Of a DNA stretch of 43,844 nt, positions 87 through 43,844 are shown in pieces. The notes beneath the pieces are model-generated. The model was not told the DNA's origin and did not search any database. It saw only the letters and a list, made by a program, of their open reading frames with translations. The DNA is from Candidatus Aceula meridiana (GTDB lineage Bacteria > Omnitrophota > Gorgyraeia > Zapsychrales > Aceulaceae): positions 1-43,844 of the forward strand of contig JAVCDE010000022.1 of NCBI GenBank assembly GCA_030765185.1. The letters are read 5' to 3'. The stretch's first letter is position 1, and every line of letters begins with the position of its first letter. A program made the position numbers and the translations under genes.

Positions 87-163
87 ACCGATAACGACCC
101 CGTTTTGTTGAGTCGTCAACATTGGCTCCCCCGCGTGGACTCGAACCACGGACCTATTGGTTA

Positions 164-750
164 CACTTAACCCGCTATTACTAACGGAAGTGGACTTTTT
201 CTTCTCCATGACTGACGTTTGTCCCTCGTCTTACTCGGGATAAACTTTGCTTCGTTCAGTTTTAGGAGGCAGGTGTATAGTCTCTGCACTTGCCCTCCGC
301 CAAAAATTTGACGGATGCTAGCTCAAGATTACCCTTCAAAGATGATTAGGGCTTCCTTGACTTAGCCTGCTTTTTCAATCCCGATTTCTCGAGAAAGCTG
401 CGTTTCGAACATGAACTTCGCGATGACAATTAGCGCAAAGAAGAACACATTTATCAAGCTCTTCAACAACCCTCTTCCAGCTTCTTGTGTATCCCTTTTG
501 AGATATGCTGAAATCTTTAGTCGAAGAAACTTTGTGATGAAGCTCTAAGGCCTCAACACACCGACTATAACCACATCGTTGGCATTTCCCACCCTTATGA
601 TCAACAGCCATTTGACGAATCTTCTTTCGTCGCTTGCGAACCGCATTTATAAGGTATTGCCGTCTGTCGTTATATGTGCGTTTATCCTTCTTTACCATCT
701 TGCCCTCTAGTTAATTCAATATTTCGCTGCGTTTTAAAAACGCAGTTTTC
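164..750 (-). ncRNA. Group I self-splicing intron in tRNA-Asn
   Basis: The 587-nt insert obeys the group I rules. The 5' exon ends in U (751) and the intron ends in G (164). An internal guide GCAGC near 722-726 can pair with the exon end GCUGU, placing a U.G wobble at the splice site. Core motifs resemble those of cyanobacterial tRNA-Leu introns: GGTAATCTTGAGC (about 321-333, P3-P5 region) and GTGCAGAGACTATAC (about 274-288, the P7 region). The HNH reading frame sits between P1 and the core. A perfect inverted repeat (CTGCGTTTT/AAAACGCAG) just after the splice site may extend P1 or form P2. The subgroup (IC3-like) is inferred from motif similarity only. Confidence 0.88.
375..698 (-). CDS. HNH homing-type endonuclease encoded in the intron
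   Basis: This 107-residue protein has a very basic N-terminus (residues 1-33) followed by an HNH fold. Its signatures are a Cys pair (KCQRCG, about 38-43), the LELHHK segment (about 51-56) and CVLLCANCHREVH near 84-96, which supplies the second zinc Cys pair and the catalytic His. ATG at 698 follows the purine-rich AGAGGGCAAG. The frame lies wholly within the group I intron, between P1 and the catalytic core, the usual place for a homing endonuclease. It probably cleaves intronless tRNA-Asn genes and so spreads the intron; that target is inferred. The length is short but complete for free-standing intron HNH proteins, and all metal and catalytic positions I can see are kept. Confidence 0.85.
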   Translation of the reverse strand: MVKKDKRTYNDRRQYLINAVRKRRKKIRQMAVDHKGGKCQRCGYSRCVEALELHHKVSSTKDFSISQKGYTRSWKRVVEELDKCVLLCANCHREVHVRNAAFSRNRD

Positions 751-786
751 ACAGCCAACCGCTCTACCAGCTGAGCTACAGGGGAA

Positions 787-946
787 TGATTCTTAACAAA
801 GAACAGTAGAAATTCCCACGCGCAAGCTTCCTTAGCTCTTTACAGGAAAGCTGTGCAGGGGAATGTTTTCTATATTTTAAAGAACAGTAGAAATTCCCAC
901 GCGCAAGCTTCCTTAAATCTTTGCTAGGAAAGCTATGGAGTGGAAT
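787..946 (-). repeat. Tandem structured repeat at the 5' flank of tRNA-Asn (2 copies)
   Basis: Two copies with a period of about 77-81 bp lie directly upstream of tRNA-Asn. Each holds a long imperfect stem-loop (AGCTTTCCT against AGGAAGCTT with GCGC/GTGC below). Each begins, on the tRNA strand, with a copy of the tRNA 5' end (ATTCCCC at 858-864; degenerate at 941-946) and ends with its inverse complement GGGAAT (812-817 and 893-898). The inverse copy next to the tRNA can pair either with the mimic or with the true tRNA 5' end. The same architecture with different sequence is found at 11914-12105 and 12682-12765. Confidence 0.8.
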
Positions 947-990
947 AATTTTTTATCAAAAAACAATAACCAAATTATACTGAAAAGTTC

Positions 991-1599
991 TCAATTGTCA
1001 ACTAGGATTTCTCGGCGTGAATTCATCGACGCGCCCAGCGTTGAAATGTCTGAATATTCTAATGCGCTTCCTAAAGGAATTCCTACGCCAATACGACTCA
1101 CCTTAACGCCTAAGGGCCTCAATTCCTGCGTAAGATACATTGATGTGGTTTCTCCTTCAGTATCAGCATCTGTCGCGATAATCACTTCATCAATGCTTTG
1201 ATTCTTAATACGATTAATCAATTGGCTAATCCGTAAAGTCTCTGGGCCTCTTCCCTCCGAAGGATTAATCGCCCCAAGCAAAACATGATAACTACCATGA
1301 TACTGCCCAGTTTTTTCAATAGCCAAAACATCCTTAGGATTCTCAACAATACAAATAGTATGATCATCACGGTTTGTTGCCGAACAAATCATGCAAATTT
1401 CGGTTTCACTTAAATTGTTACAAATGCGGCAGAAACTTAAATTATCTTTAATTTTTAGAATGTCCTCAGAAAGCCCGTGAGCCTCTTCTCTCGAATTATC
1501 TAAAAGCCAAAAAACAATGCGCTCCGCGCTTCTTCGGCCAATGCCGGGAAGTTTGGTGAGTCTTTCAATAAGATTTTCAACAATTCTTGGATATGCCAT
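991..1599 (-). CDS. recR: Recombination mediator protein RecR
   Basis: RecR forms a ring clamp that works with RecO/RecF to load RecA on gapped DNA. The 202-residue protein is full length. The N-terminal helix-hairpin-helix has the LPGIGRRSAERI motif (about 17-28). A four-cysteine zinc finger follows (C57, C60, C69, C72), then a Toprim domain with the IVENPKDVLAIE and DADTEGE segments. It starts 9 bp after the dnaX stop, the common dnaX-recR arrangement, but the small ybaB gene often found between them is absent. The tRNA-Asn repeats begin about 45 bp downstream, so recR and the tRNA may share a transcript. Confidence 0.97.
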   Translation of the reverse strand: MAYPRIVENLIERLTKLPGIGRRSAERIVFWLLDNSREEAHGLSEDILKIKDNLSFCRICNNLSETEICMICSATNRDDHTICIVENPKDVLAIEKTGQYHGSYHVLLGAINPSEGRGPETLRISQLINRIKNQSIDEVIIATDADTEGETTSMYLTQELRPLGVKVSRIGVGIPLGSALEYSDISTLGASMNSRREILVDN

Positions 1600-6125: not shown

Positions 6126-7736
6126 TTATTTCTCAGAAATTTGCGAAAATTCGACTCCGAGCATCTTGCTTTTTTCAAAGGACTTTTGAAGCTCAAATGG
6201 GTTAATGCCTGCGTCCATTAAGACAACCCAGGCTGTCGACGCTAAACTTAAAACTTGCGGATTGTGAGAAAACCAACCAAAAGGAATCCATCCGCGCTTC
6301 GAGGAATAGGCATATGCAGCCTTTTTGTCAGGGAGCTCCTGGCGCAAAAGCTCAATGCCATCTCGCATCTGCTGCGCATCAGATAGAGCGCGATCAGACC
6401 ACAGAGGATTGGAGATCTCATAATATTTTGCAATATTACGAGCCGCACAAATAGCTCCAGCCGTCCATTCTACTGAAACACGATCATGCTCTGCTGTAAA
6501 TCCAACTCCTAAAAACTCACCAAAATCATCCTTTGCGCCCGCAAGCTTGCACACAGTTTCCCACATCTGATAACTGGTCCCTTCGCCGAACCATGAATCA
6601 ATTTTTTTACAACCTAAAGCAAGAATGCCCCACGTTTGAACATCCGTTGCAAAATGATCTTGCGAAGGCATCCATTGACCATTTACAAAATGCATCCCCT
6701 GATCAAAACATTTTAACTCTTCATTCCAAACACTTTGAAAATAGATTTCTATCTTTTTAAGTGCTTGGAGATAAGTTTCTTTTTGTGTTACCTGATAAAG
6801 CATGCGAAATGCTGCATACCAAGAAAGATTATTTTCGGTTGAAATAAGATTATACCAACCTTTCCCATCATCGCCCTCTTTGAAATATGTGCCGATAGGC
6901 GCCATGCGGATCCCACCATTTTCGGTTTGTAAAAAAATTGCCGCTCTGGCCAACTCCTCGGCTAAGCAAAGCTCGATCGTACCCTTAGGAGGAAAATACT
7001 TTTTCGATTTTTTATCAAAATATTTCTTATGAAACAGATGTACAGACGCCATTGCAACCCAGGCATTCTCCCCGGCTACTGGCTTCCAGTCCTCCCAATG
7101 GACAGTGGGCCAAGTCGGAAACCCGGAAAAATGTGTTTTTCCATCAAGAGGGTCCTGTGTATTATATTTTCCATTGGCATTAATAATGCGAAAAATAAAA
7201 CCTCTCTGACCAAAATTATCAAGGTTAGAAGAAACTGCATCCGGATTATTTTCATCATAGACAAATTGGTTAATCGGAAACCCTGCCCTTATATTACTTA
7301 ATTCGCCAACTGACCCTTGCCAGTACATATTAAGAGGTAAAAGCGCCGCTTCAAGATCCTGTGGCGTTCCTAAAAGCGTACGGACAATTTGGCTAACGGC
7401 ACCATCATAAACAACCAATCCCTCTTCGACAATCATGCGCTCAATAATTCCATCGATAGAATCAGTTTCTGATATCTCGGCATAAACTTCTTTTTTATCC
7501 TCAATCTGAATATCAAAGCTTAGAGGAAGCTGCGTTTCCGCACTAATATTTTCTCTTATCCATTTAATTAGTTTCGGGTCTGAATCACGCATTAAGGCCT
7601 CCGTTTTATTTTCTAAATTGAGATCCTTTTGATATCGGTTTCTCTCAAAGTCAAAAGCAAGGGGATTTGCAAAGGCAAAATTTGCAGAAAAAATAAGCAC
7701 TAGGGTTACAACAAACACAAAAAAACTTTTGGTCAT
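6126..7736 (-). CDS. Secreted alpha/alpha-toroid-like protein under a c-di-GMP riboswitch
   Basis: The 536-residue protein begins at ATG 7736 behind a strong GGAGG. Residues 1-24 are a signal peptide ending FANFAFA. The rest is helix-rich with regularly spaced Trp, Tyr, His and Gly clusters (FPTWPTVHWEDW, ENAWVAMAS, TENNLSWYAAFRML, ATDVQTWGILAL, VEWTAGAICAARN). That pattern resembles six-hairpin glycosidase-type toroids that bind or cut polysaccharide. I cannot name a family or a catalytic pair, so activity is unproven. Control by c-di-GMP suggests a role in exopolysaccharide or surface-attachment behaviour. Confidence 0.65.
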   Translation of the reverse strand: MTKSFFVFVVTLVLIFSANFAFANPLAFDFERNRYQKDLNLENKTEALMRDSDPKLIKWIRENISAETQLPLSFDIQIEDKKEVYAEISETDSIDGIIERMIVEEGLVVYDGAVSQIVRTLLGTPQDLEAALLPLNMYWQGSVGELSNIRAGFPINQFVYDENNPDAVSSNLDNFGQRGFIFRIINANGKYNTQDPLDGKTHFSGFPTWPTVHWEDWKPVAGENAWVAMASVHLFHKKYFDKKSKKYFPPKGTIELCLAEELARAAIFLQTENGGIRMAPIGTYFKEGDDGKGWYNLISTENNLSWYAAFRMLYQVTQKETYLQALKKIEIYFQSVWNEELKCFDQGMHFVNGQWMPSQDHFATDVQTWGILALGCKKIDSWFGEGTSYQMWETVCKLAGAKDDFGEFLGVGFTAEHDRVSVEWTAGAICAARNIAKYYEISNPLWSDRALSDAQQMRDGIELLRQELPDKKAAYAYSSKRGWIPFGWFSHNPQVLSLASTAWVVLMDAGINPFELQKSFEKSKMLGVEFSQISEK

Positions 7737-7752
7737 AATTCCTCCAGACAAA

Positions 7753-7814: not shown

Positions 7815-7908
7815 ATGTTACGGCAGTCAGACAACCATTTGCTTAAAACTTTAAGCATTTAGGCTCACGACTTTGTGCCCCACCCTTTCGAGCAGTTTAC
7901 CTTTCCAA
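7815..7908 (-). promoter_or_regulatory. GEMM-I cyclic di-GMP riboswitch aptamer
   Basis: Read on the minus strand, the order of conserved blocks matches the GEMM-I class. GGTAAACTG comes first. A P2 hairpin CTGCTC-GAAA-GGGTGG with the GNRA tetraloop follows, then GGCACAAAG, then GAGCCTAA (the tetraloop-receptor side). A variable hairpin and ATGGTTGTCTGACTGCCG close the structure. The G run before TAAAC keeps G at the position that contacts the ligand in c-di-GMP (rather than cGAMP) members; this assignment is from memory of the Vc2 structure. An AT-rich hairpin (TAACATAT/ATATGTTA) and the terminator follow. Confidence 0.87.
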
Positions 7909-7938
7909 AAATTTAAAGAACGCTTTTCTTTCAGCTAA

Positions 7939-11834: not shown

Positions 11835-11926
11835 TGGCGGAGAGGGAGAGATTCGAACTCTCGGACCCGCCTAAACAGGTCAACTGATTAGCAGTCAGCT
11901 CCATTCAACCACTCTGGCACCTCTCC
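11835..11926 (-). tRNA. tRNA-Ser(GCT)
   Basis: Class II tRNA of 92 nt including encoded CCA. The acceptor is GGAGAGG/CCTCTCC, the anticodon stem-loop is CTGA-CTGCTAA-TCAG with anticodon GCT, there is a long variable arm, and the T arm is GAGAG TTCGAAT CTCTC. Two 88-bp structured repeats that carry copies of its 5' end lie directly upstream. Confidence 0.96.
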
Positions 11927-12105
11927 TTAATATCTCAAATAGCAGAAGGTGCACGTGCAAATTCCTCTTAAAGATTAAATTCTTCGAAGAGAAATTTTTG
12001 CCTGGCACCTCTCCTTAATATCTCAAATAGCAGAAGGTGCACGTGCAAATTCCTCTTAAAGATTAAATTCTTCGAAGAGAAATTTTTGCCTGGCACCTCT
12101 CCATA
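11914..12105 (-). repeat. Tandem 88-bp structured repeat at the 5' end of tRNA-Ser(GCT)
   Basis: Two near-identical units (11914-12001 and 12002-12089) plus a partial third (12090-12105) overlap the first 13 nt of tRNA-Ser. Each unit starts, on the tRNA strand, with the tRNA 5' end GGAGAGGTGCCAG. A stem-loop GCAAAAATTTCTCTT / AAGAGGAATTTGC follows, then ACGT and the inverse copy GCACCT, then about 24 nt leading into the next tRNA-like start. GCACCT can pair with AGGTGC of either the mimic or the true tRNA (nt 5-10). Confidence 0.85.
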
Positions 12106-12112
12106 ATGTCTA

Positions 12113-12595
12113 TTAATTATTCCCAAACGAAATACTTGCTGAAAACCTTTTCTGCTTAAAAAAACGTGTCATAATCGCTGAGCACTCTTCTTGACAAATA
12201 CCATCTATAACTTCAATACGATGATTCAAGTTTGGATGCGTAACAATATTTAAAACTGAACCACAAGCCCCTGTTTTTGGATCTTTTGCGCCATAACAAA
12301 TTGTTTTTAAGCGGGACAAAACCAACGCCCCGGCGCACATGCTGCAAGGCTCGATTGTAGCATACAGGATGCAATCATTCAACCATTTGACACCTAGCGT
12401 GCTGGTAGCCTGCGTAACCGCAATCATCTCAGCATGAGCAGTTGGGTCCCTTAACATCTCAATTTGATTATGCGCCTTAGCAATAATGCGACCTTTGTGG
12501 ACAATGACAGCACCGACAGGAACTTCATCAGCTTCAAAAGCCATCTGCGCTTGCTTTAGCGCTACCTGCATATATTCTTGATGATTATTGGTCAT
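12113..12595 (-). CDS. tadA: tRNA adenosine(34) deaminase
   Basis: TadA converts A34 to inosine in tRNA-Arg(ACG). The 160-residue protein is the usual length. The catalytic zinc site is complete: HAE (H54, E56) and PCSMC (C84, C87), with the proton-shuttle Glu in HAE. The substrate tRNA-Arg(ACG) lies 11 bp upstream on the same strand, so enzyme and substrate are probably cotranscribed. Downstream is the tRNA-Ser(GCT) repeat cluster. Confidence 0.96.
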   Translation of the reverse strand: MTNNHQEYMQVALKQAQMAFEADEVPVGAVIVHKGRIIAKAHNQIEMLRDPTAHAEMIAVTQATSTLGVKWLNDCILYATIEPCSMCAGALVLSRLKTICYGAKDPKTGACGSVLNIVTHPNLNHRIEVIDGICQEECSAIMTRFFKQKRFSASISFGNN

Positions 12596-12605
12596 GCGTA
12601 AAAAA

Positions 12606-12681
12606 TGGCGCGCCTGAGAGGACTCGAACCTCTAACCCCTTGCTCCGTAGGCAAGTGCTCTATCCATTGAGCTACAGGCGC
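12606..12681 (-). tRNA. tRNA-Arg(ACG)
   Basis: 76 nt with encoded CCA. The acceptor is GCGCCTG/CAGGCGC, the anticodon arm is CTTGC-CTACGGA-GCAAG giving anticodon ACG, and the T arm is AGAGG TTCGAGT CCTCT. A34 is the target of TadA, encoded just downstream. Confidence 0.97.
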
Positions 12682-12765
12682 ACTTCCTTAAATTCGTAAA
12701 TCTCGGTAGTGCGCGCGTGCCGATTACCTCTATTCGAACATTTAGGAAAATTGGCCAGGCGCATT
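12682..12765 (-). repeat. Structured repeat at the 5' flank of tRNA-Arg(ACG), single copy
   Basis: On the tRNA strand this element starts with AATGCGCCTGG, a mimic of the tRNA 5' end. A stem CCAATTTTCCT / AGGTAATCGG and the inverse copy GCGCACT follow, with about 24 nt of spacer before the true tRNA start. GCGCACT is perfectly complementary to AGTGCGC spanning the real tRNA 5' end, and pairs slightly less well with the mimic. The layout is the same as at tRNA-Asn and tRNA-Ser(GCT). It fills the gap between the CpaF stop and the tRNA. Confidence 0.75.
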
Positions 12766-12767
12766 AA

Positions 12768-14126
12768 TTATCCAATGATCCGCTTGCGTTCTAAGCCTAA
12801 ACTTTTCAATGCTTTTTCCGAATCCTCGTTATATGCATGACAAAACATTGTTATTTCGTTAATTGCCTTAACTCCTTTATCCGCAAGAGCCTTTAACGTC
12901 ACTGCACGCACGTAAACTTCATCCATAATTTCTTTTGGTGACAGACCACTAGTCTTTGAAAGCTTGTCGCGATAAATCGTTGATGGTGAAATAGTTTCAA
13001 AACTACGCTTTTCATAGTCAAATTTAAATATTGTCGATAGAAGAACAGTCTTTTGTTCCATCCCCCCGGTTTCACTTACCTCATCAACAATACGATAAAT
13101 TTTATCTTTAACATGAAATCTTTTCAAAACAACAAAAACATCGATCAGATTAACCAAAATCTCTGGGACATTCATCGGCTCATTCTCAAGACGCAAAATA
13201 GCTTCGCGGGCTGTTAGGGCATGGATTGTTCCCATGCAATACTTTCCAACGTTAGCTGCCGTTACTAAATCAGCTGCCTCTGCCCCTCTGACCTCACCAA
13301 CAATAATACGCTCAGGGCGCATGCGTAATGTATTTTTAACCAAATCCGAAAGACTTGTATCCTCATCGCTTTCTAAGCGCGAACAACTATCTTCATGGAA
13401 TGTATTTAATTCGAGAGTATCCTCAATGACAACCAATCGTTCCTTTTTCGGGATAAAACTAAAAAGGGCATTTAAAAGCGTTGTCTTTCCGGTTCCTGGC
13501 CCACCGGCAAGAATAATGTTAGCCGGTTTGATTGACATCCCTTCAATATAAAGCCAAAGCTGGGCAGCGATCTCATACGTTAAGCTCCCCCTGTTAATCA
13601 AGTCGAGAATGCTTAGCGGATCAACTTTTGTCTTTGTAATTGTAATCTGAGGACCGAATGGGGACTCTGCAATATTAACGCGTCCTTCAAGATTGGCTAA
13701 CTCCAAATTCGCGATTTTCTTTTTTTCAACACGGCCAGAAAATAAAAGCAACTTTCTGATAAATAAATCAAGCTCCGTTAAATCCGAAAATCGTTTTGGC
13801 GTTGCAATAAGCCCTTTTTCTGCATGATGCACAAAAATTGTATTCGTCGCATTGATAATAATATCTTCAACCAGGACGTCGCATAAAAAATCTTCAATAA
13901 TCCCATAAGAAAGAAATTTGGCAATAAATTCTCTCCGCAGACTCTCATCGCTCAATTCATCAAAAGCCTCCTTTAAATTCCTTCCTTGTTCACTGTCGCG
14001 AATTTTTTCAAAAGCAATGTCGATAAACTCCTCTTTTTCATTAAGAGGCTGCATTAAGGAAATCCTTCCCCAAAGTTGATCAACAAGAAGGTTTTCTAAC
14101 AAAATCATTTTGGATCGATTTATCAT
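12768..14126 (-). CDS. cpaF: CpaF/TadA-type secretion ATPase
   Basis: The 452-residue protein is a hexameric ATPase of the Tad pilus/type IV secretion VirB11-like class. It shows an N-terminal domain, GLIATPKRF-type segments, Walker A GGPGTGKTT, the Asp box VVIEDTLEL, Walker B with RIIVGEVRGAEAADL and the conserved His in GTIHALTAREA. No TadB, TadC, pilin or CpaE-type gene sits beside it, so its partner apparatus is not visible. About the last 120 residues are a C-terminal extension beyond the ATPase core. It follows the 178-residue protein with an 83-bp gap and may share its operon. Confidence 0.87.
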   Translation of the reverse strand: MINRSKMILLENLLVDQLWGRISLMQPLNEKEEFIDIAFEKIRDSEQGRNLKEAFDELSDESLRREFIAKFLSYGIIEDFLCDVLVEDIIINATNTIFVHHAEKGLIATPKRFSDLTELDLFIRKLLLFSGRVEKKKIANLELANLEGRVNIAESPFGPQITITKTKVDPLSILDLINRGSLTYEIAAQLWLYIEGMSIKPANIILAGGPGTGKTTLLNALFSFIPKKERLVVIEDTLELNTFHEDSCSRLESDEDTSLSDLVKNTLRMRPERIIVGEVRGAEAADLVTAANVGKYCMGTIHALTAREAILRLENEPMNVPEILVNLIDVFVVLKRFHVKDKIYRIVDEVSETGGMEQKTVLLSTIFKFDYEKRSFETISPSTIYRDKLSKTSGLSPKEIMDEVYVRAVTLKALADKGVKAINEITMFCHAYNEDSEKALKSLGLERKRIIG

Positions 14127-18876: not shown

Positions 18877-19033
18877 AAAAACTGAGCACAGGGTCAAAGC
18901 ATCTAATCAACTTGACTTATCTCAAATCGTATGGCCATATGTGTAGTAACGAGTTCCGAACCCTTTGGTTTTCGGGACAAAGATTGGGATAAGGAAGTCT
19001 AATAAATCCCCAAACCTTAAAGGAGATCGCAAT

Positions 19034-19495
19034 ATGAGCGAAAGCACCATTGCTGAAATAATGAAATTAAAAAAAATGCCTTTAGACGAATTGCAGAAAA
19101 AATACAAAGAGGTTTTTGAGAGCAAAGAAATGCCTTCCAGCAACAAGGTCCTTCTCTGGCGAAAAATAGCCTACCGCCTACAAGAACTTGAATATGGCGG
19201 TCTGTCTAATGACACCAAAAATAGAATTAACGAACTTATTGAGCGATATGACCCGATCAATAACAAGATGCTCCGGCCTCAAAAAGCGCTAAATAAAGTT
19301 AAGGGCGCCGGACGGGATACGCGACTCCCCATTCCCGGGGCAATCATAAGGAAGGAATACAAAGGTCAGATTCTAGAAGTCAAGGTACTTGAAAAAGGCT
19401 TCGAATATCAGGGCCAAGCCTATCGCACTCTCTCCGCAGTCGCTACGGCAGTGACTGGGATTCATTGGAACGGATACCTATTCTTTAAGCCATGA
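19034..19495 (+). CDS. DUF2924 family protein, partner of the serine recombinase
   Basis: The 153-residue protein starts at ATG 19034, 6 nt after AAAGGAGATC. An N-terminal helical half (1-80, with ELQKKYKEVF and LLWRKIAYRLQELEYGGLS) is followed by a basic linker and a C-terminal small beta domain (PIPGAIIRKEYKGQILEVKVLEKGFEYQGQAYRTLSAVATAVTGIHWNGYLFF). This matches DUF2924, found next to large serine recombinases in phage-like islands. Its role is unclear; the C-terminal domain looks DNA-binding. It overlaps the recombinase by 4 bp (ATGA), so the two are translationally coupled. With the recombinase it is one of only two real genes on the plus strand. Confidence 0.88.
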   Translation: MSESTIAEIMKLKKMPLDELQKKYKEVFESKEMPSSNKVLLWRKIAYRLQELEYGGLSNDTKNRINELIERYDPINNKMLRPQKALNKVKGAGRDTRLPIPGAIIRKEYKGQILEVKVLEKGFEYQGQAYRTLSAVATAVTGIHWNGYLFFKP

Positions 19496-21144
19496 CAACC
19501 GAACCTGAACAGAAAAAGCACCTGGTATGCGCCATCTACACCCGCAAATCCTCCTCTGAAGGATTGGATCAAGAATTTAGTTCCCTCGATAACCAACGTG
19601 AATCTGCCGAAAACTACATCAAAAGCCAACAACATGAAGGCTGGACAGCTTCTCCAGAATTATATGATGATGGCGGATGCACAGGCGCTAACATTGAACG
19701 ACCCGGGCTTCAAAAACTACTGAATGATATAAAAGCAGGAAAGATAAACTGTGTCGTTGTCTATAAAGTTGATAGGCTTTCCCGCTCTCTTCTTGATTTC
19801 AGCCAACTGCTAGAATTCTTTGATAAACATAATGTAGTCTTTGTTTCAATTACCCAACATTTCAATACCAATACCTCCATGGGACGATTGACGCTCAACA
19901 TCCTGCTTTCATTCGCTCAATTCGAACGTGAAATCATCAGCGAGCGCACGAAAGACAAGCTTAGTGCCGCTCGTAAGCGCGGGCAATGGCTAGGTGGACA
20001 CCCGCCATTCGGCTATATGCGAAACCCTCTTGAGAAACGTAAAATTATTATCAATCCTGAAGAAGTCGACATGGTACGCAAGGTCTACTCTCTTTACCTT
20101 AAGAAAAACTCCGCGCTCGAAGTCACCCAAACAATCAATGCTACCGGCTATCGCACACCTTCTTGGCTAACAAAAACTGGCAGAACCTTTGGAAATAAAA
20201 AATTCAGCATTGTAACTGTTGTCCGTATACTCAAGAATCATACCTACGTCGGCAAGGTTAATTACCAAGGAAATATCTATGACGGGCTTCAGCCGGCCAT
20301 AGTCGATGAAGAAACATTCAACAAGGTCCAGGAACGGATTGCTCATCACCGTCGTGATCGAAAACCCTACAAAAATAAAGATTGTTCGGGGCTTTTATCC
20401 AAAATCCTTAAATGTAAGTCCTGCGGTAGCGCCATGGTCCATACCTATACCTTGAAGAAAAAGCGCCATAAGTACCGATATTACCTTTGCTCGAATGCCC
20501 AGAAACGCGGCTACTCAGAATGCCCCGTCCGCTATGTTAACGCACAGCAGATGGAGGATCGAATCATACAGATATTGCGCGGTGAGGTTAACAATTTTAA
20601 AAGTTCACCGCACAAAACAGAAGTCGAAGCCGTCCTCTCACCTATTTGGGATTCACTGTTCTTTGAGGAAAAAAGAAAAATCCTGCAAACGCTCATCAAA
20701 ATAGCTGACTATGATTCAACAACAAAAAGAATCGGCATGATTCTAAACGGGTCAACCGAACGAATGGAATTTGATTCAAACATCAAGAAAATCTACGCCC
20801 GAGAGCGTGACTCAAAAAAACGTCTTCTTAGCAAAGAACCTCCGATAAGAAGATTTCTGCTCCTTGCCCACCATTTAAACAACCATCTTGTTGAAGGAAA
20901 AATAAAAGACCTGAGGCAGGCAGCTGCTTGGTTAGGCTTCGATCAATCAAGACTTAGCCACATCCTTGGACTTTTGCACCTATCACCATCAATCCAAGCA
21001 GAGATAATGACAGATAATTCTCCGATCCTCGACTCTATCCCCGAATACAAGCTCCGCGATCTCTCTTCTGAGTCGGACTGGTCTAAACAGGCCATCCAAT
21101 GGCAAGAGATTAAAAGCTCTCTCCTCTTAAGCCTAAAAGCGTAA
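19492..21144 (+). CDS. Large serine recombinase
   Basis: This is a 550-residue site-specific recombinase or integrase. The catalytic resolvase domain (about 10-160) has YTRKSSSEG with the nucleophile Ser20, the KVDRLSRSLLDF motif and the FAQFEREIISERTKDKL helix. A recombinase domain follows (about 170-290), then a zinc ribbon with CKSCG ... YLCSN ... ECPVRY cysteines. A C-terminal region ends with a helix-turn-helix-like stretch (DLRQAAAWLGFDQSRLSHILGLL). It is full length with no frameshift. No cargo genes lie beside it, so the element is either minimal or a remnant. The opposite orientation to all neighbours supports acquisition by transfer. Confidence 0.95.
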   Translation: MTTEPEQKKHLVCAIYTRKSSSEGLDQEFSSLDNQRESAENYIKSQQHEGWTASPELYDDGGCTGANIERPGLQKLLNDIKAGKINCVVVYKVDRLSRSLLDFSQLLEFFDKHNVVFVSITQHFNTNTSMGRLTLNILLSFAQFEREIISERTKDKLSAARKRGQWLGGHPPFGYMRNPLEKRKIIINPEEVDMVRKVYSLYLKKNSALEVTQTINATGYRTPSWLTKTGRTFGNKKFSIVTVVRILKNHTYVGKVNYQGNIYDGLQPAIVDEETFNKVQERIAHHRRDRKPYKNKDCSGLLSKILKCKSCGSAMVHTYTLKKKRHKYRYYLCSNAQKRGYSECPVRYVNAQQMEDRIIQILRGEVNNFKSSPHKTEVEAVLSPIWDSLFFEEKRKILQTLIKIADYDSTTKRIGMILNGSTERMEFDSNIKKIYARERDSKKRLLSKEPPIRRFLLLAHHLNNHLVEGKIKDLRQAAAWLGFDQSRLSHILGLLHLSPSIQAEIMTDNSPILDSIPEYKLRDLSSESDWSKQAIQWQEIKSSLLLSLKA

Positions 21145-40942: not shown

Positions 40943-43844
40943 TTATTCTGCACTTTCAAACCAACTCTTAACAACAACCTCTTGAGCGCCAACTGCCTCT
41001 GTAAGAGCAGCAAGTTTTGCGTTAATTTCCGCGAGCTTTGAATGAACCTTGTCGATATCCGTCCCTTCTCCTGCACCGCCAAGGTCTTCAGCTGATACAC
41101 CATCGACAGTTACACCATCAATCCCAAGTGATTTGGCAGATTCATCAACAAAATTTGATAATTTCGATAACATCTCTGCTGCAAGATTACCTGTTTCAAG
41201 TTGACTTTCAGAAATTGTTTCAGAAGCAATCTGCAACTCTTCTAAAGCCTCATTAAGTTTTTTCAGTTTTCCATAAACATTTGGCGTCATACCTTCTGCA
41301 CCAATTTCGCTACGGACACTTTGAACTTCTCCTAAAGCTGCTTCTGCACCGCTCTTTGCCTTATCTACGTTAGTCCTGATCGCTGTGAGCTTTGACAATT
41401 CAGCAAAGACAGTCTCAGCGGTTTCATCATCTCCTGAAACCCCTATCAAGCTTTCAACCGTGTCAACGTAGCCTTCTATTCCGTTAAGAGCACCAAACAC
41501 AGTTGTTGTACCCGCATCCGTTGAAGTCCCAACAGCAGTCTCAATGACTTCTACAGCTGCGCTTATGTCATTGATCTTTGAAAGGTCAAGGCTTGATAAC
41601 TCATCGACAACAGTTCCTAATTCCTCAAGCCCTTCGATTGAACCAACCGCATTGTAAATCAAGGCTAATTTCCCAAACAAAGTGTTATCCTCTAATGTGT
41701 CCGCAGAATCTCCAAGAGACGAATTTAGCGTGTTGACAACTGTTAAAATCGAATTAATATTGGTAACAATTGTTTGCGCATTATCTGCAAGATAGGCAAT
41801 ATCATTCCAATTAATATTGGCACTTGTCATCGATGCTAAATCGCTCCAATTAACTCCTGCATTGCTAGTAACGCCCATATCGTCCCAGTTAATGCCTGTT
41901 CCCGACATATAAGAAAGATCTGCCCAGTTAACTCCTCCTGTCGACATTGAAGCAATATCATCCCAATTAATACCGGCTTCGGTCATGACCTGAAAATCTA
42001 CCCAATTAATCCCGGATTCGGTTAATGCGCCGATGTCCTCCCAATTAATGCCGGATTCACTTAGTCGTCTTAAGTCTACCCAATTAATTTGTTCTGATGC
42101 CAAAAATCTAAGATCTGCCCAGTTAATGCCAGATTCGCTTAATGCACCAATATCTATCCAGTTGACGCCAACGTCTGCCAATTCGCTGATATCTTCCCAG
42201 TTAATTCCAGCTTCAGATAAAGTCCCGATGCCAGACCAATTAACACCGGCTGCGCTAAAATAGGCAATATCTGTCCAATTAACCCCGGAGTCGCTCAAAG
42301 ACGCAACATCAATCCAATTAATTCCACTTACGCTCATATCGTAAAGTTCTATCCAGTTAACACCAGCTTCTGTTAATGTGCCAATATCACTCCAGTTAAT
42401 TCCTCTAGAGCTTAAATCATAAAAAGCGGTCCAATTGATTCCTGTTTCGGCCATGCTGCCTATATCTGTCCAATTAATCCCACGTGAACCTAAATCATAA
42501 AATGCAGTCCAATTAACGCCCTTATCTGATAATGCTCCAATGTCATCCCAGTTAATGCCTGATTCGCTTAATGCTCTAACATCATTCCAATTAATACCCC
42601 GAGAGCTTAAATCATAAAAAGAAGCCCAATTGATGCCGGTATCAGATAAAGTTCCTATATCTGTCCAATTTATACCAACGCTAGATAAGGCTCCTATGTC
42701 AGTCCAATTGACACCTTGATCGCTTAAAGCGCCTATGTCTACCCAATTAATACCCTGGGTGCTTAAATCATAGATCGATGACCAATTGACACCTTGATCG
42801 CTTAAAACGCCTATGTCTACCCAATTAATACCCTGGGTGCTTAAATCGTAGATCGATGACCAATTGACACCTTGATCGCTTAAAGCGCCTATGTCTACCC
42901 AATTAATACCCTGGGTGCTTAAAGCCCTAAAGTCTGACCAGTTAACACCAGCAACACTTAAAGCTCCTATATCTGTCCAGTTAATTCCCTGTGAGGTTAG
43001 GTCGTAGAAAGCCATCCAATTAATACCGGATGCAGATAACGTTCCTAAATCAGTCCAATTAACTCCTGCACTTGACAACTCGCCAATGTCTATCCAATTA
43101 ATTCCGGTGGCGCTTAAAGCCGATATATCTGTCCAGTTGATTCCTCGTGAACTTAAATCATAAAAAGAAGTCCAATTAATTCCAGAATCAGACAAGCTTC
43201 CTATGTCTGTCCAGTTGATACCAGCTGCGCTTAAAACTCCGATGTCAGTCCAATTAATTCCCGTGGTGCTCAACGATCCTATATCGCTCCAGTTGATTCC
43301 TCGTGAACTCAAATCATAAAAAGAAGTCCAATTAATACCCGTCTCAGATAACGACCCTATATCGCTCCAGTTGATTCCTCGTGAACTCAAATCATAAAAA
43401 GAAGTCCAATTAATACCCGTCTCAGATAACGACCCTATATCGCTCCAATTAATACCGGCAAGACTTAAATTTTCTATATCAGTCCAATTAACACCAGAAT
43501 CGCTTAAAATACCGATGTCGACCCAATTAATACTGGCTGTTGTCATACCACTAAAGTCCGTCCAATTAATTCCGGAAGTTGTAAATACATTAAAATCGGC
43601 CCAATTAATTCCGGCTTTAGATAAAGCATTAATGTCATTCCAATTGACACCCTGGGCGCTCATATCATAAAGTGATAACCAGTTAATGCCCTGGTCGCTC
43701 ATGGAGTTGATGTCCGCCCAATCAATACCCTGGGCGCTCATATCATAGAGTGATAACCAGTTAATGCCCTGATCGCTCATGGAGTTGATGTCTGTCCAAT
43801 CAATACCCTGGGCGCTCATATCATAGAGTGATAACCAGTTAATG
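40943..43844 (-). CDS. Giant INW-repeat protein (5' end outside the window)
   Basis: The reading frame runs off the right edge (the bases 43820-43844 continue ...INWLSLYD in frame), so the start and any signal peptide are not visible. At least 52 full copies of a 13-residue unit, consensus GINWxDIxxLSxx, fill positions 41780-43844. The last 278 residues are different: low in aromatic residues, with five spaced units of the type TxFGKLxxI inside coiled-coil sequence, and an end reading VVVKSWFESAE. The repeats predict an extended solenoid and the C-terminus a stalk. It is the first gene seen in the ATPase/T2SS run. Function unknown; a surface or secreted substrate role is inferred. Confidence 0.85.
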   Translation of the reverse strand, partial: INWLSLYDMSAQGIDWTDINSMSDQGINWLSLYDMSAQGIDWADINSMSDQGINWLSLYDMSAQGVNWNDINALSKAGINWADFNVFTTSGINWTDFSGMTTASINWVDIGILSDSGVNWTDIENLSLAGINWSDIGSLSETGINWTSFYDLSSRGINWSDIGSLSETGINWTSFYDLSSRGINWSDIGSLSTTGINWTDIGVLSAAGINWTDIGSLSDSGINWTSFYDLSSRGINWTDISALSATGINWIDIGELSSAGVNWTDLGTLSASGINWMAFYDLTSQGINWTDIGALSVAGVNWSDFRALSTQGINWVDIGALSDQGVNWSSIYDLSTQGINWVDIGVLSDQGVNWSSIYDLSTQGINWVDIGALSDQGVNWTDIGALSSVGINWTDIGTLSDTGINWASFYDLSSRGINWNDVRALSESGINWDDIGALSDKGVNWTAFYDLGSRGINWTDIGSMAETGINWTAFYDLSSRGINWSDIGTLTEAGVNWIELYDMSVSGINWIDVASLSDSGVNWTDIAYFSAAGVNWSGIGTLSEAGINWEDISELADVGVNWIDIGALSESGINWADLRFLASEQINWVDLRRLSESGINWEDIGALTESGINWVDFQVMTEAGINWDDIASMSTGGVNWADLSYMSGTGINWDDMGVTSNAGVNWSDLASMTSANINWNDIAYLADNAQTIVTNINSILTVVNTLNSSLGDSADTLEDNTLFGKLALIYNAVGSIEGLEELGTVVDELSSLDLSKINDISAAVEVIETAVGTSTDAGTTTVFGALNGIEGYVDTVESLIGVSGDDETAETVFAELSKLTAIRTNVDKAKSGAEAALGEVQSVRSEIGAEGMTPNVYGKLKKLNEALEELQIASETISESQLETGNLAAEMLSKLSNFVDESAKSLGIDGVTVDGVSAEDLGGAGEGTDIDKVHSKLAEINAKLAALTEAVGAQEVVVKSWFESAE
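41780..43844 (-). repeat. 39-bp tandem coding repeat, 52 or more copies
   Basis: Each 39-bp unit encodes GINWxDIxxLSxx. Units alternate locally between a type with D after W (WTDIG) and a type with S/A-F/L/I-Y-D (WTSFYDLSSR), giving a 78-bp higher-order period in places. Exact copies (43307-43384 against 43385-43462, and near 42770-42930) show recent duplication. At least 52 whole units are in the window and the array continues off the right edge. Confidence 0.95.

Follow-up and report, generated by a model that had tools for sequence, protein, structure and literature searches.

Hairpin units with direct and inverted copies of tRNA 5' ends in the leaders of Omnitrophota tRNA genes: a putative family of repeat elements

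Many tRNA genes of Candidatus Aceula meridiana and other Omnitrophota are preceded by small hairpin-forming units whose arms repeat the 5' end of the adjacent tRNA in direct and in inverted orientation, and these units seem to form a hitherto undescribed family of repeat elements bound to tRNA genes. In the window, i.e. the whole stretch of 43,844 nucleotides analysed here, which belongs to a 1.9-Mb draft genome, two 88-bp units with 100% identity (repeat search, family D6; TRF) lie upstream of the 5' end of tRNA-Ser(GCT), and the array starts with a third, partial copy. On the tRNA strand, the unit is composed of GGAGAGGTGCCAG, corresponding to nucleotides 1-13 of the tRNA, a hairpin GCAAAAA...TTTGC, the tetranucleotide ACGT, GCACCTTCT, which is the reverse complement of the tRNA 5' segment, and a linker. 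In its general form, the unit runs T - hairpin B - ACG - T' - AT-rich linker - T, with T being the tRNA 5' end (7-19 nt plus flank) and T' the inverted copy of T. The fold of a single Ser(GCT) unit reaches -27.4 kcal/mol, compared with -16.4 +/- 2.8 for shuffled sequences (z = -3.9), and none of 200 shuffles was as good. The repeats, the sequence and this fold confirm the original prediction, made from the letters of the window, of two 88-bp units carrying a copy of the tRNA 5' sequence and its inverse. The complete identity of the two units indicates that this particular copy is recent. The coordinates of the features are collected in Table 1.

Table 1. Positions of the tRNA genes, unit components and associated signals in the window.
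Feature	Position	Strand	Evidence
tRNA-Ser(GCT)	11835..11926	-	ARAGORN; Rfam RF00005, 57 bits
Last T of the Ser(GCT) array (tRNA nt 1-13)	11926-11914	-	Sequence
tRNA-proximal 88-bp unit	11914..12001	-	100% repeat D6; TRF
R1 match in the proximal unit	11944-12014	-	81.3 bits, by construction (the unit is part of the model)
AT-rich linker, T' to tRNA 5' end	11927..11943	-	Sequence
T' GCACCTTCT, inverted copy of tRNA 5' segment	11944..11952	-	Sequence; fold; permutation test
ACGT junction, same on both strands	11953..11956	-	Sequence
Hairpin B, GCAAAAATTTCTC...AGGAATTTGC	11957..12001	-	Fold
Second identical 88-bp unit	12002..12089	-	Sequence; repeat search; R1 covariance model
Second unit, T	12002-12014	-	
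Second unit, T'	12032-12040	-	
Second unit, ACGT	12041-12044	-	
Second unit, B	12045-12089	-	
Farthest-upstream dead copy of tRNA 5' end + flank (22 nt)	12090..12111	-	Repeat family D10, 91% identical
Weak promoter-like site TTTTCA-18-AATAAT, upstream of Ser(GCT) array	12116..12145	-	9/12
tRNA-Arg(ACG)	12606..12681	-	ARAGORN
Lone unit at tRNA-Arg(ACG)	12682..12769 (about)	-	Sequence
Arg(ACG) unit, dead copy TGCGCCTG	~12756-12763	-	
Arg(ACG) unit, hairpin GCC..GGC	~12719-12755	-	
Arg(ACG) unit, ACGC		-	
Arg(ACG) unit, T' GCGCAC	~12709-12714	-	
tRNA-Asn array, about two units	779..968	-	TRF period 81; sense-strand folds
Promoter TTGACA-16-TATAAT, upstream of Asn array	974..1001	-	12/12, sequence
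tRNA-Asn(GTT), split by group I intron	123..785	-	Exons read from sequence
Group I intron RF00028 match	171-420	-	Rfam, 52.9 bits

The plan of the Ser(GCT) array has counterparts in the window at two unrelated tRNAs, tRNA-Asn and tRNA-Arg(ACG), and outside the window, in the same genome, at Ser(TGA), Lys(CTT), Ala(GGC) and Leu(CAG). At tRNA-Asn, TRF and the folds bear out the expectation of the same layout with another sequence. The single unit at tRNA-Arg(ACG), missing from the original prediction, folds as T, a 1-nt mismatch and B with a z-score that is weak on its own (-1.55). The ACG junction was found in most Ser, Arg, Ala and Asn units. The Ser(TGA) array (L002) reaches a contig end, so that such repeats may break assemblies. 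R1, a covariance model built from seven Ser units, matches the Asn array on the opposite strand (32.6 bits); an inverted insertion at this locus was considered and rejected, the GCACGTGC-like junctions being near-palindromic and the sense-strand folds good. The intron of tRNA-Asn(GTT) (~171-744) is located in the anticodon loop and contains an ORF (375-698, minus strand) coding for an HNH-like endonuclease; the orthologous tRNA-Asn of the congeneric genome G002 has neither intron nor array. tRNA-Arg(ACG), tadA and tRNA-Ser(GCT) are adjacent in the window (11835-12681), likewise in many other Omnitrophota; the ACG anticodon is the target of TadA.

The genome of the window (G000) was compared with those of two Candidatus Aceula (G001 and G002) and of a sister genus (G003); all genomes are drafts, the named relatives are metagenome-assembled, and mainly tRNA loci were examined. 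G001 has units at Ser(TGA), Ala and Lys among other tRNAs, G002 at Ser(GCT), Ser(TGA) and Lys among others, and those of G003 lie at Asn, Ala and Thr(CGT) as well as at four Arg tRNAs. In an unbiased scan with a threshold of at least 11 of 12 nucleotides matching the tRNA 5' end, upstream copies were detected at 5/39, 5/37, 5/38 and 6/41 tRNAs of the four genomes (13-15%) and at 19 of the 153 tRNAs (12%) in 76 other Omnitrophota loci, versus 0.3-2.8% when leaders were swapped between tRNAs. Hairpins of the TTTCC...GGAAA type reach 0.37 per kb in leaders versus 0.03 per kb far from tRNAs, in a count based on a hand-made motif and including overlapping matches. Strong matches to R1 were obtained only in the three Aceula genomes, because this model captures Ser-type sequence. 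At several of the wider Omnitrophota loci, the dead copy extends into the D-loop and hairpins split it (e.g. L081, L077, L075 and L111); in orders beyond the family of Aceula, both copies and hairpins follow the plan more loosely, and the set may be a mixture of element families. That the Ser(GCT) units result from a recent and simple duplication of one tRNA flank, with no wider meaning, would suit two identical 88-bp copies but is very improbable, since the plan recurs at unrelated tRNAs, in other species and in other orders. The original prediction would have fallen with a duplication lacking any counterpart, and counterparts were found within the genome itself, in the genus, in the sister genus and in other Omnitrophota.

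The segment T' follows the adjacent tRNA. Across ten tRNA groups, T' pairs with T of its own type at about -9.9 kcal/mol, compared with -5.25 when types are permuted, and none of 20,000 permutations was as good, in a set of hand-chosen and hand-delimited units from which the non-fitting Cys units of G001 and G003 and several Arg units of G003 were left out. An automated matching of T', with no hand delimitation, gave a Fisher p of 7e-7 over 29 loci, about a third of them individually below 0.05, in a set including two Val(CAC) genes whose 'copy' is the neighbouring tRNA-Met. A simple comparison of duplex energies between leaders and tRNA 5' ends gave no signal, the short stems being drowned out by A/U-rich flanks. 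The original prediction of a conserved plan whose arms track the adjacent tRNA is thus upheld by the permutations, whereas its further claim that the architecture alone is conserved is not, because the Ser(GCT) and Ser(TGA) units share sequence (68.5% over 200 nt, E = 1.5e-19; BLAST between leaders, clustered tRNAs masked). By the same comparison, the leaders of Arg(ACG), Arg(CCT) and Arg(TCG) in G003 are mutually similar (E down to 4e-10). Clear cross-locus similarity was observed only within the Ser and within the Arg loci, while the plan and the core recur at unrelated tRNAs; the similarity mostly links tRNAs whose 5' ends resemble each other, and ordinary recombination could account for it.

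The folds of units from separate loci resemble one another: a short break lies between the T/T' stem and the B stem, and ACGU often faces CUGA. Folds of single Ser, Lys, Asn and Arg units contain both the B hairpin and the T/T' stems, and the minimum free energy shape deviates in one of eight units tested (Lys of G002). Among the Lys orthologues of three Aceula species, both partners have been replaced in 3/5 B-stem pairs and a single partner in none, the T/T' stem hardly varies and 92.9% of cells are paired; with three sequences only, the covariation score of the alignment was reached by 6/500 shuffles. The promoter upstream of the Leu(CAG) array, on the tRNA strand, matches at 11/12 positions. 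The near-perfect promoters upstream of the Asn and Leu arrays suggest that the units at these loci are probably transcribed within the tRNA leader. Similar promoters precede the array-less orthologues (Asn in G002, Leu in G003), and in G001 and G002 tRNA-Leu(CAG) is lost and the promoter retained. At Ser(GCT), the promoter search found two sites versus 2.6 expected, not above chance.

One rival explanation is a functional leader switch, in which T' would pair either with the dead upstream T, which is transcribed first, or with the 5' end of the tRNA proper. We regard this as unlikely, and the same holds for its consequence, namely that the choice of pairing would govern the formation of the acceptor stem, maturation by RNase P and the supply of certain tRNAs. 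It is in agreement with the fixed order of the parts relative to the tRNA, the position of the Asn and Leu arrays downstream of promoters and the compensatory change at Lys. Moreover, where the upstream and downstream copies differ, T' fits the downstream T better in 16 units and the upstream T in none, with 8 ties (Wilcoxon p = 3.6e-4; two units have a doubtful upstream context and one is counted twice), and when scored by duplex energy the same comparison gives 13 to 3; T' is therefore shaped to match the T that follows, in many cases that of the real tRNA. Against it, the arrays are patchy between species, about 85% of tRNAs have no upstream copy, copy number goes from one to about four, and no codon or amino-acid logic is shared. 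An excess of G-T over A-C mismatches, as expected for pairing in the RNA strand, was observed in a hand-picked set (42:17) and is significant in all leaders too; an unbiased set restricted to array leaders and scored with a symmetric detector gives 7:3, which is not significant. The stronger proposal, that the arrays form a new class of cis-acting leader RNA across the Omnitrophota, in which T' toggles between decoy and real 5' end to control tRNA folding and RNase P maturation with copy number as a tuning knob, is rather doubtful.

The preference of T' for the downstream T would also be expected from fold-back synthesis, and the units could be a mutational by-product of replication stalled at tRNA genes, through fold-back template switching followed by tandem duplication, with neither mobile element nor function. 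This explanation, in which T' would be produced from T and dead T copies left behind, is also unlikely in our judgement; it agrees with the perfect tandem copies at Ser(GCT) and with sharing chiefly among tRNAs with similar 5' ends. The compensatory changes at Lys do not decide against it, because quasi-palindrome correction could mimic them. Nor is a mobility enzyme consistently found, which is a point against mobile elements: reverse transcriptase (RVT_1, PF00078) gave no match in the four genomes, G000 to G003, drafts that are about 95-98% complete, and a Y1 transposase (PF01797) is present once in each of G001 and G003 and was detected neither in G000 nor in G002. Alone, however, a by-product of this kind leaves unexplained the recurring ACG junctions and the similar hairpin cores at unrelated tRNAs.

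The reading that we favour, and to which we give about an even chance, is that of repetitive hairpin elements confined to Omnitrophota tRNA leaders, which multiply when the tRNA 5' end is duplicated and are maintained by a folding constraint. An event at a tRNA gene would duplicate the leader and the tRNA 5' end, the inverted copy of T would form by hairpin insertion or by fold-back synthesis, and the tRNA would remain intact with its displaced 5' end left upstream. Recombination between T copies in tandem may then enlarge or shrink the array, and units may move between tRNAs, most easily where the 5' ends resemble each other, as among Ser or among Arg tRNAs. An array transcribed with its tRNA would have to fold on itself, so that the structure would be kept while the sequence drifts. 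At orthologous tRNAs, the array is absent at Asn and Ala in G002 and at Leu(CAG) in G003, and the number of units varies between species. The favoured reading further draws on the tracking of the adjacent tRNA by the arms, on the better fit of T' to the downstream T, on the likeness of units at different tRNAs and on the compensatory changes in the Lys hairpin.

The nearest described systems are the repetitive hairpin-forming elements (RHE) of sponge mitochondria (PMC2800124) and the double-hairpin elements (DHE; Paquin et al. 2000, as cited in PMC4618339). Both are short non-coding hairpins, often two in tandem and often beside tRNA genes, whose function is not established (PMC2800124; PMC4618339), and with the Omnitrophota units they have in common a small size, a divergent sequence, an alike structure and variability between close relatives. 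Two adjacent hairpins or stems at least are present per unit in the single-unit folds, and presence or absence at orthologous sites was observed for Asn, Ala and Leu among G000-G003, as for RHE and DHE. Unlike them, the Omnitrophota units are bacterial, are concentrated in tRNA 5' leaders and have arms that reproduce the 5' end of the adjacent tRNA in both orientations; in the open-licence papers searched, neither target-derived arms nor a restriction to tRNA 5' ends is reported, and no bacterial description was found.

Other known systems resemble the units in part. REP/BIME repeats are small palindromic non-coding sequences mobilised by RAYT (Y1) transposases; the Omnitrophota units are likewise small, palindromic, non-coding and located between genes, but their stems vary with the host tRNA instead of being constant, and the genomes of the window and of G002 contain no cognate Y1. 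The absence of reverse transcriptase matches in G000-G003 also speaks against group II introns, retrons and other elements borne by a reverse transcriptase. Integron attC sites are folded imperfect palindromes in tandem whose structure is kept more than their sequence, as in the units; unlike attC, these show by eye neither cassette ORFs between them nor a conserved RYYYAAC/GTTRRRY pair, and are tied to tRNA 5' ends. Islands that target tRNA genes duplicate a tRNA fragment, usually of the 3' end, and restore the gene. Duplicated fragment and intact gene are found here too, but at the 5' end, in units of 60-130 bp without integrase and with an inverted copy T'. T-box and other leader RNAs are structured and complementary to tRNA, whereas the units precede tRNA genes and pair with the 5' strand of the acceptor and D-arm; an Rfam scan of the arrays found no family at gathering score (T-box, riboswitch or other). 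Finally, in place of the unique and unrelated spacers of CRISPR, the inserts repeat within the array and are complementary to the repeat.

Bacterial tRNA genes are usually regarded as compact and as integration targets at their 3' ends. In this candidate phylum, about one tRNA gene in eight bears structured repeats from its own 5' end, which turn over between species. If they are true elements, they would be a bacterial counterpart of the organelle hairpin elements with target-derived arms; if the arrays act, they would add a previously unrecognised level to the control of tRNAs. Annotation of tRNA genes can be misled by dead 5' copies and by split tRNAs, as at Leu(CAG). At the latter locus (L041, ~2420-2780), a whole tRNA-Leu(CAG) is nested in a split tRNA-Leu, with the 5' half upstream and the 3' half downstream, and the leader and trailer of the inner gene are inverted repeats. 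The outer 5' half matches the array-less G003 orthologue, so that the most upstream Leu(CAG) copy looks ancestral.

Downstream of tRNA-Thr(TGT) in G003 (L175), the tRNA-Thr 3' end is repeated with a TTTCC..GGAAA-type hairpin between the copies, and a second double-hairpin family, GGCGAATTTAC..CGCACGCGAAGCGTG, is common to the leaders of tRNA-Leu(TAA) and tRNA-Glu(TTC) in G001 (L144 and L158). In the window, a c-di-GMP-I riboswitch (63 bits, 7819-7911, minus strand) lies upstream of an ORF at 6126-7751, and the protein encoded at 40943-43819 (minus strand) is mostly a degenerate 13-residue repeat of the GINW type in many copies. Beside tRNA-Ser(GGA), a serine-recombinase-like ORF of 550 aa with a small companion ORF (18965-21144, plus strand) is perhaps an integrated element.
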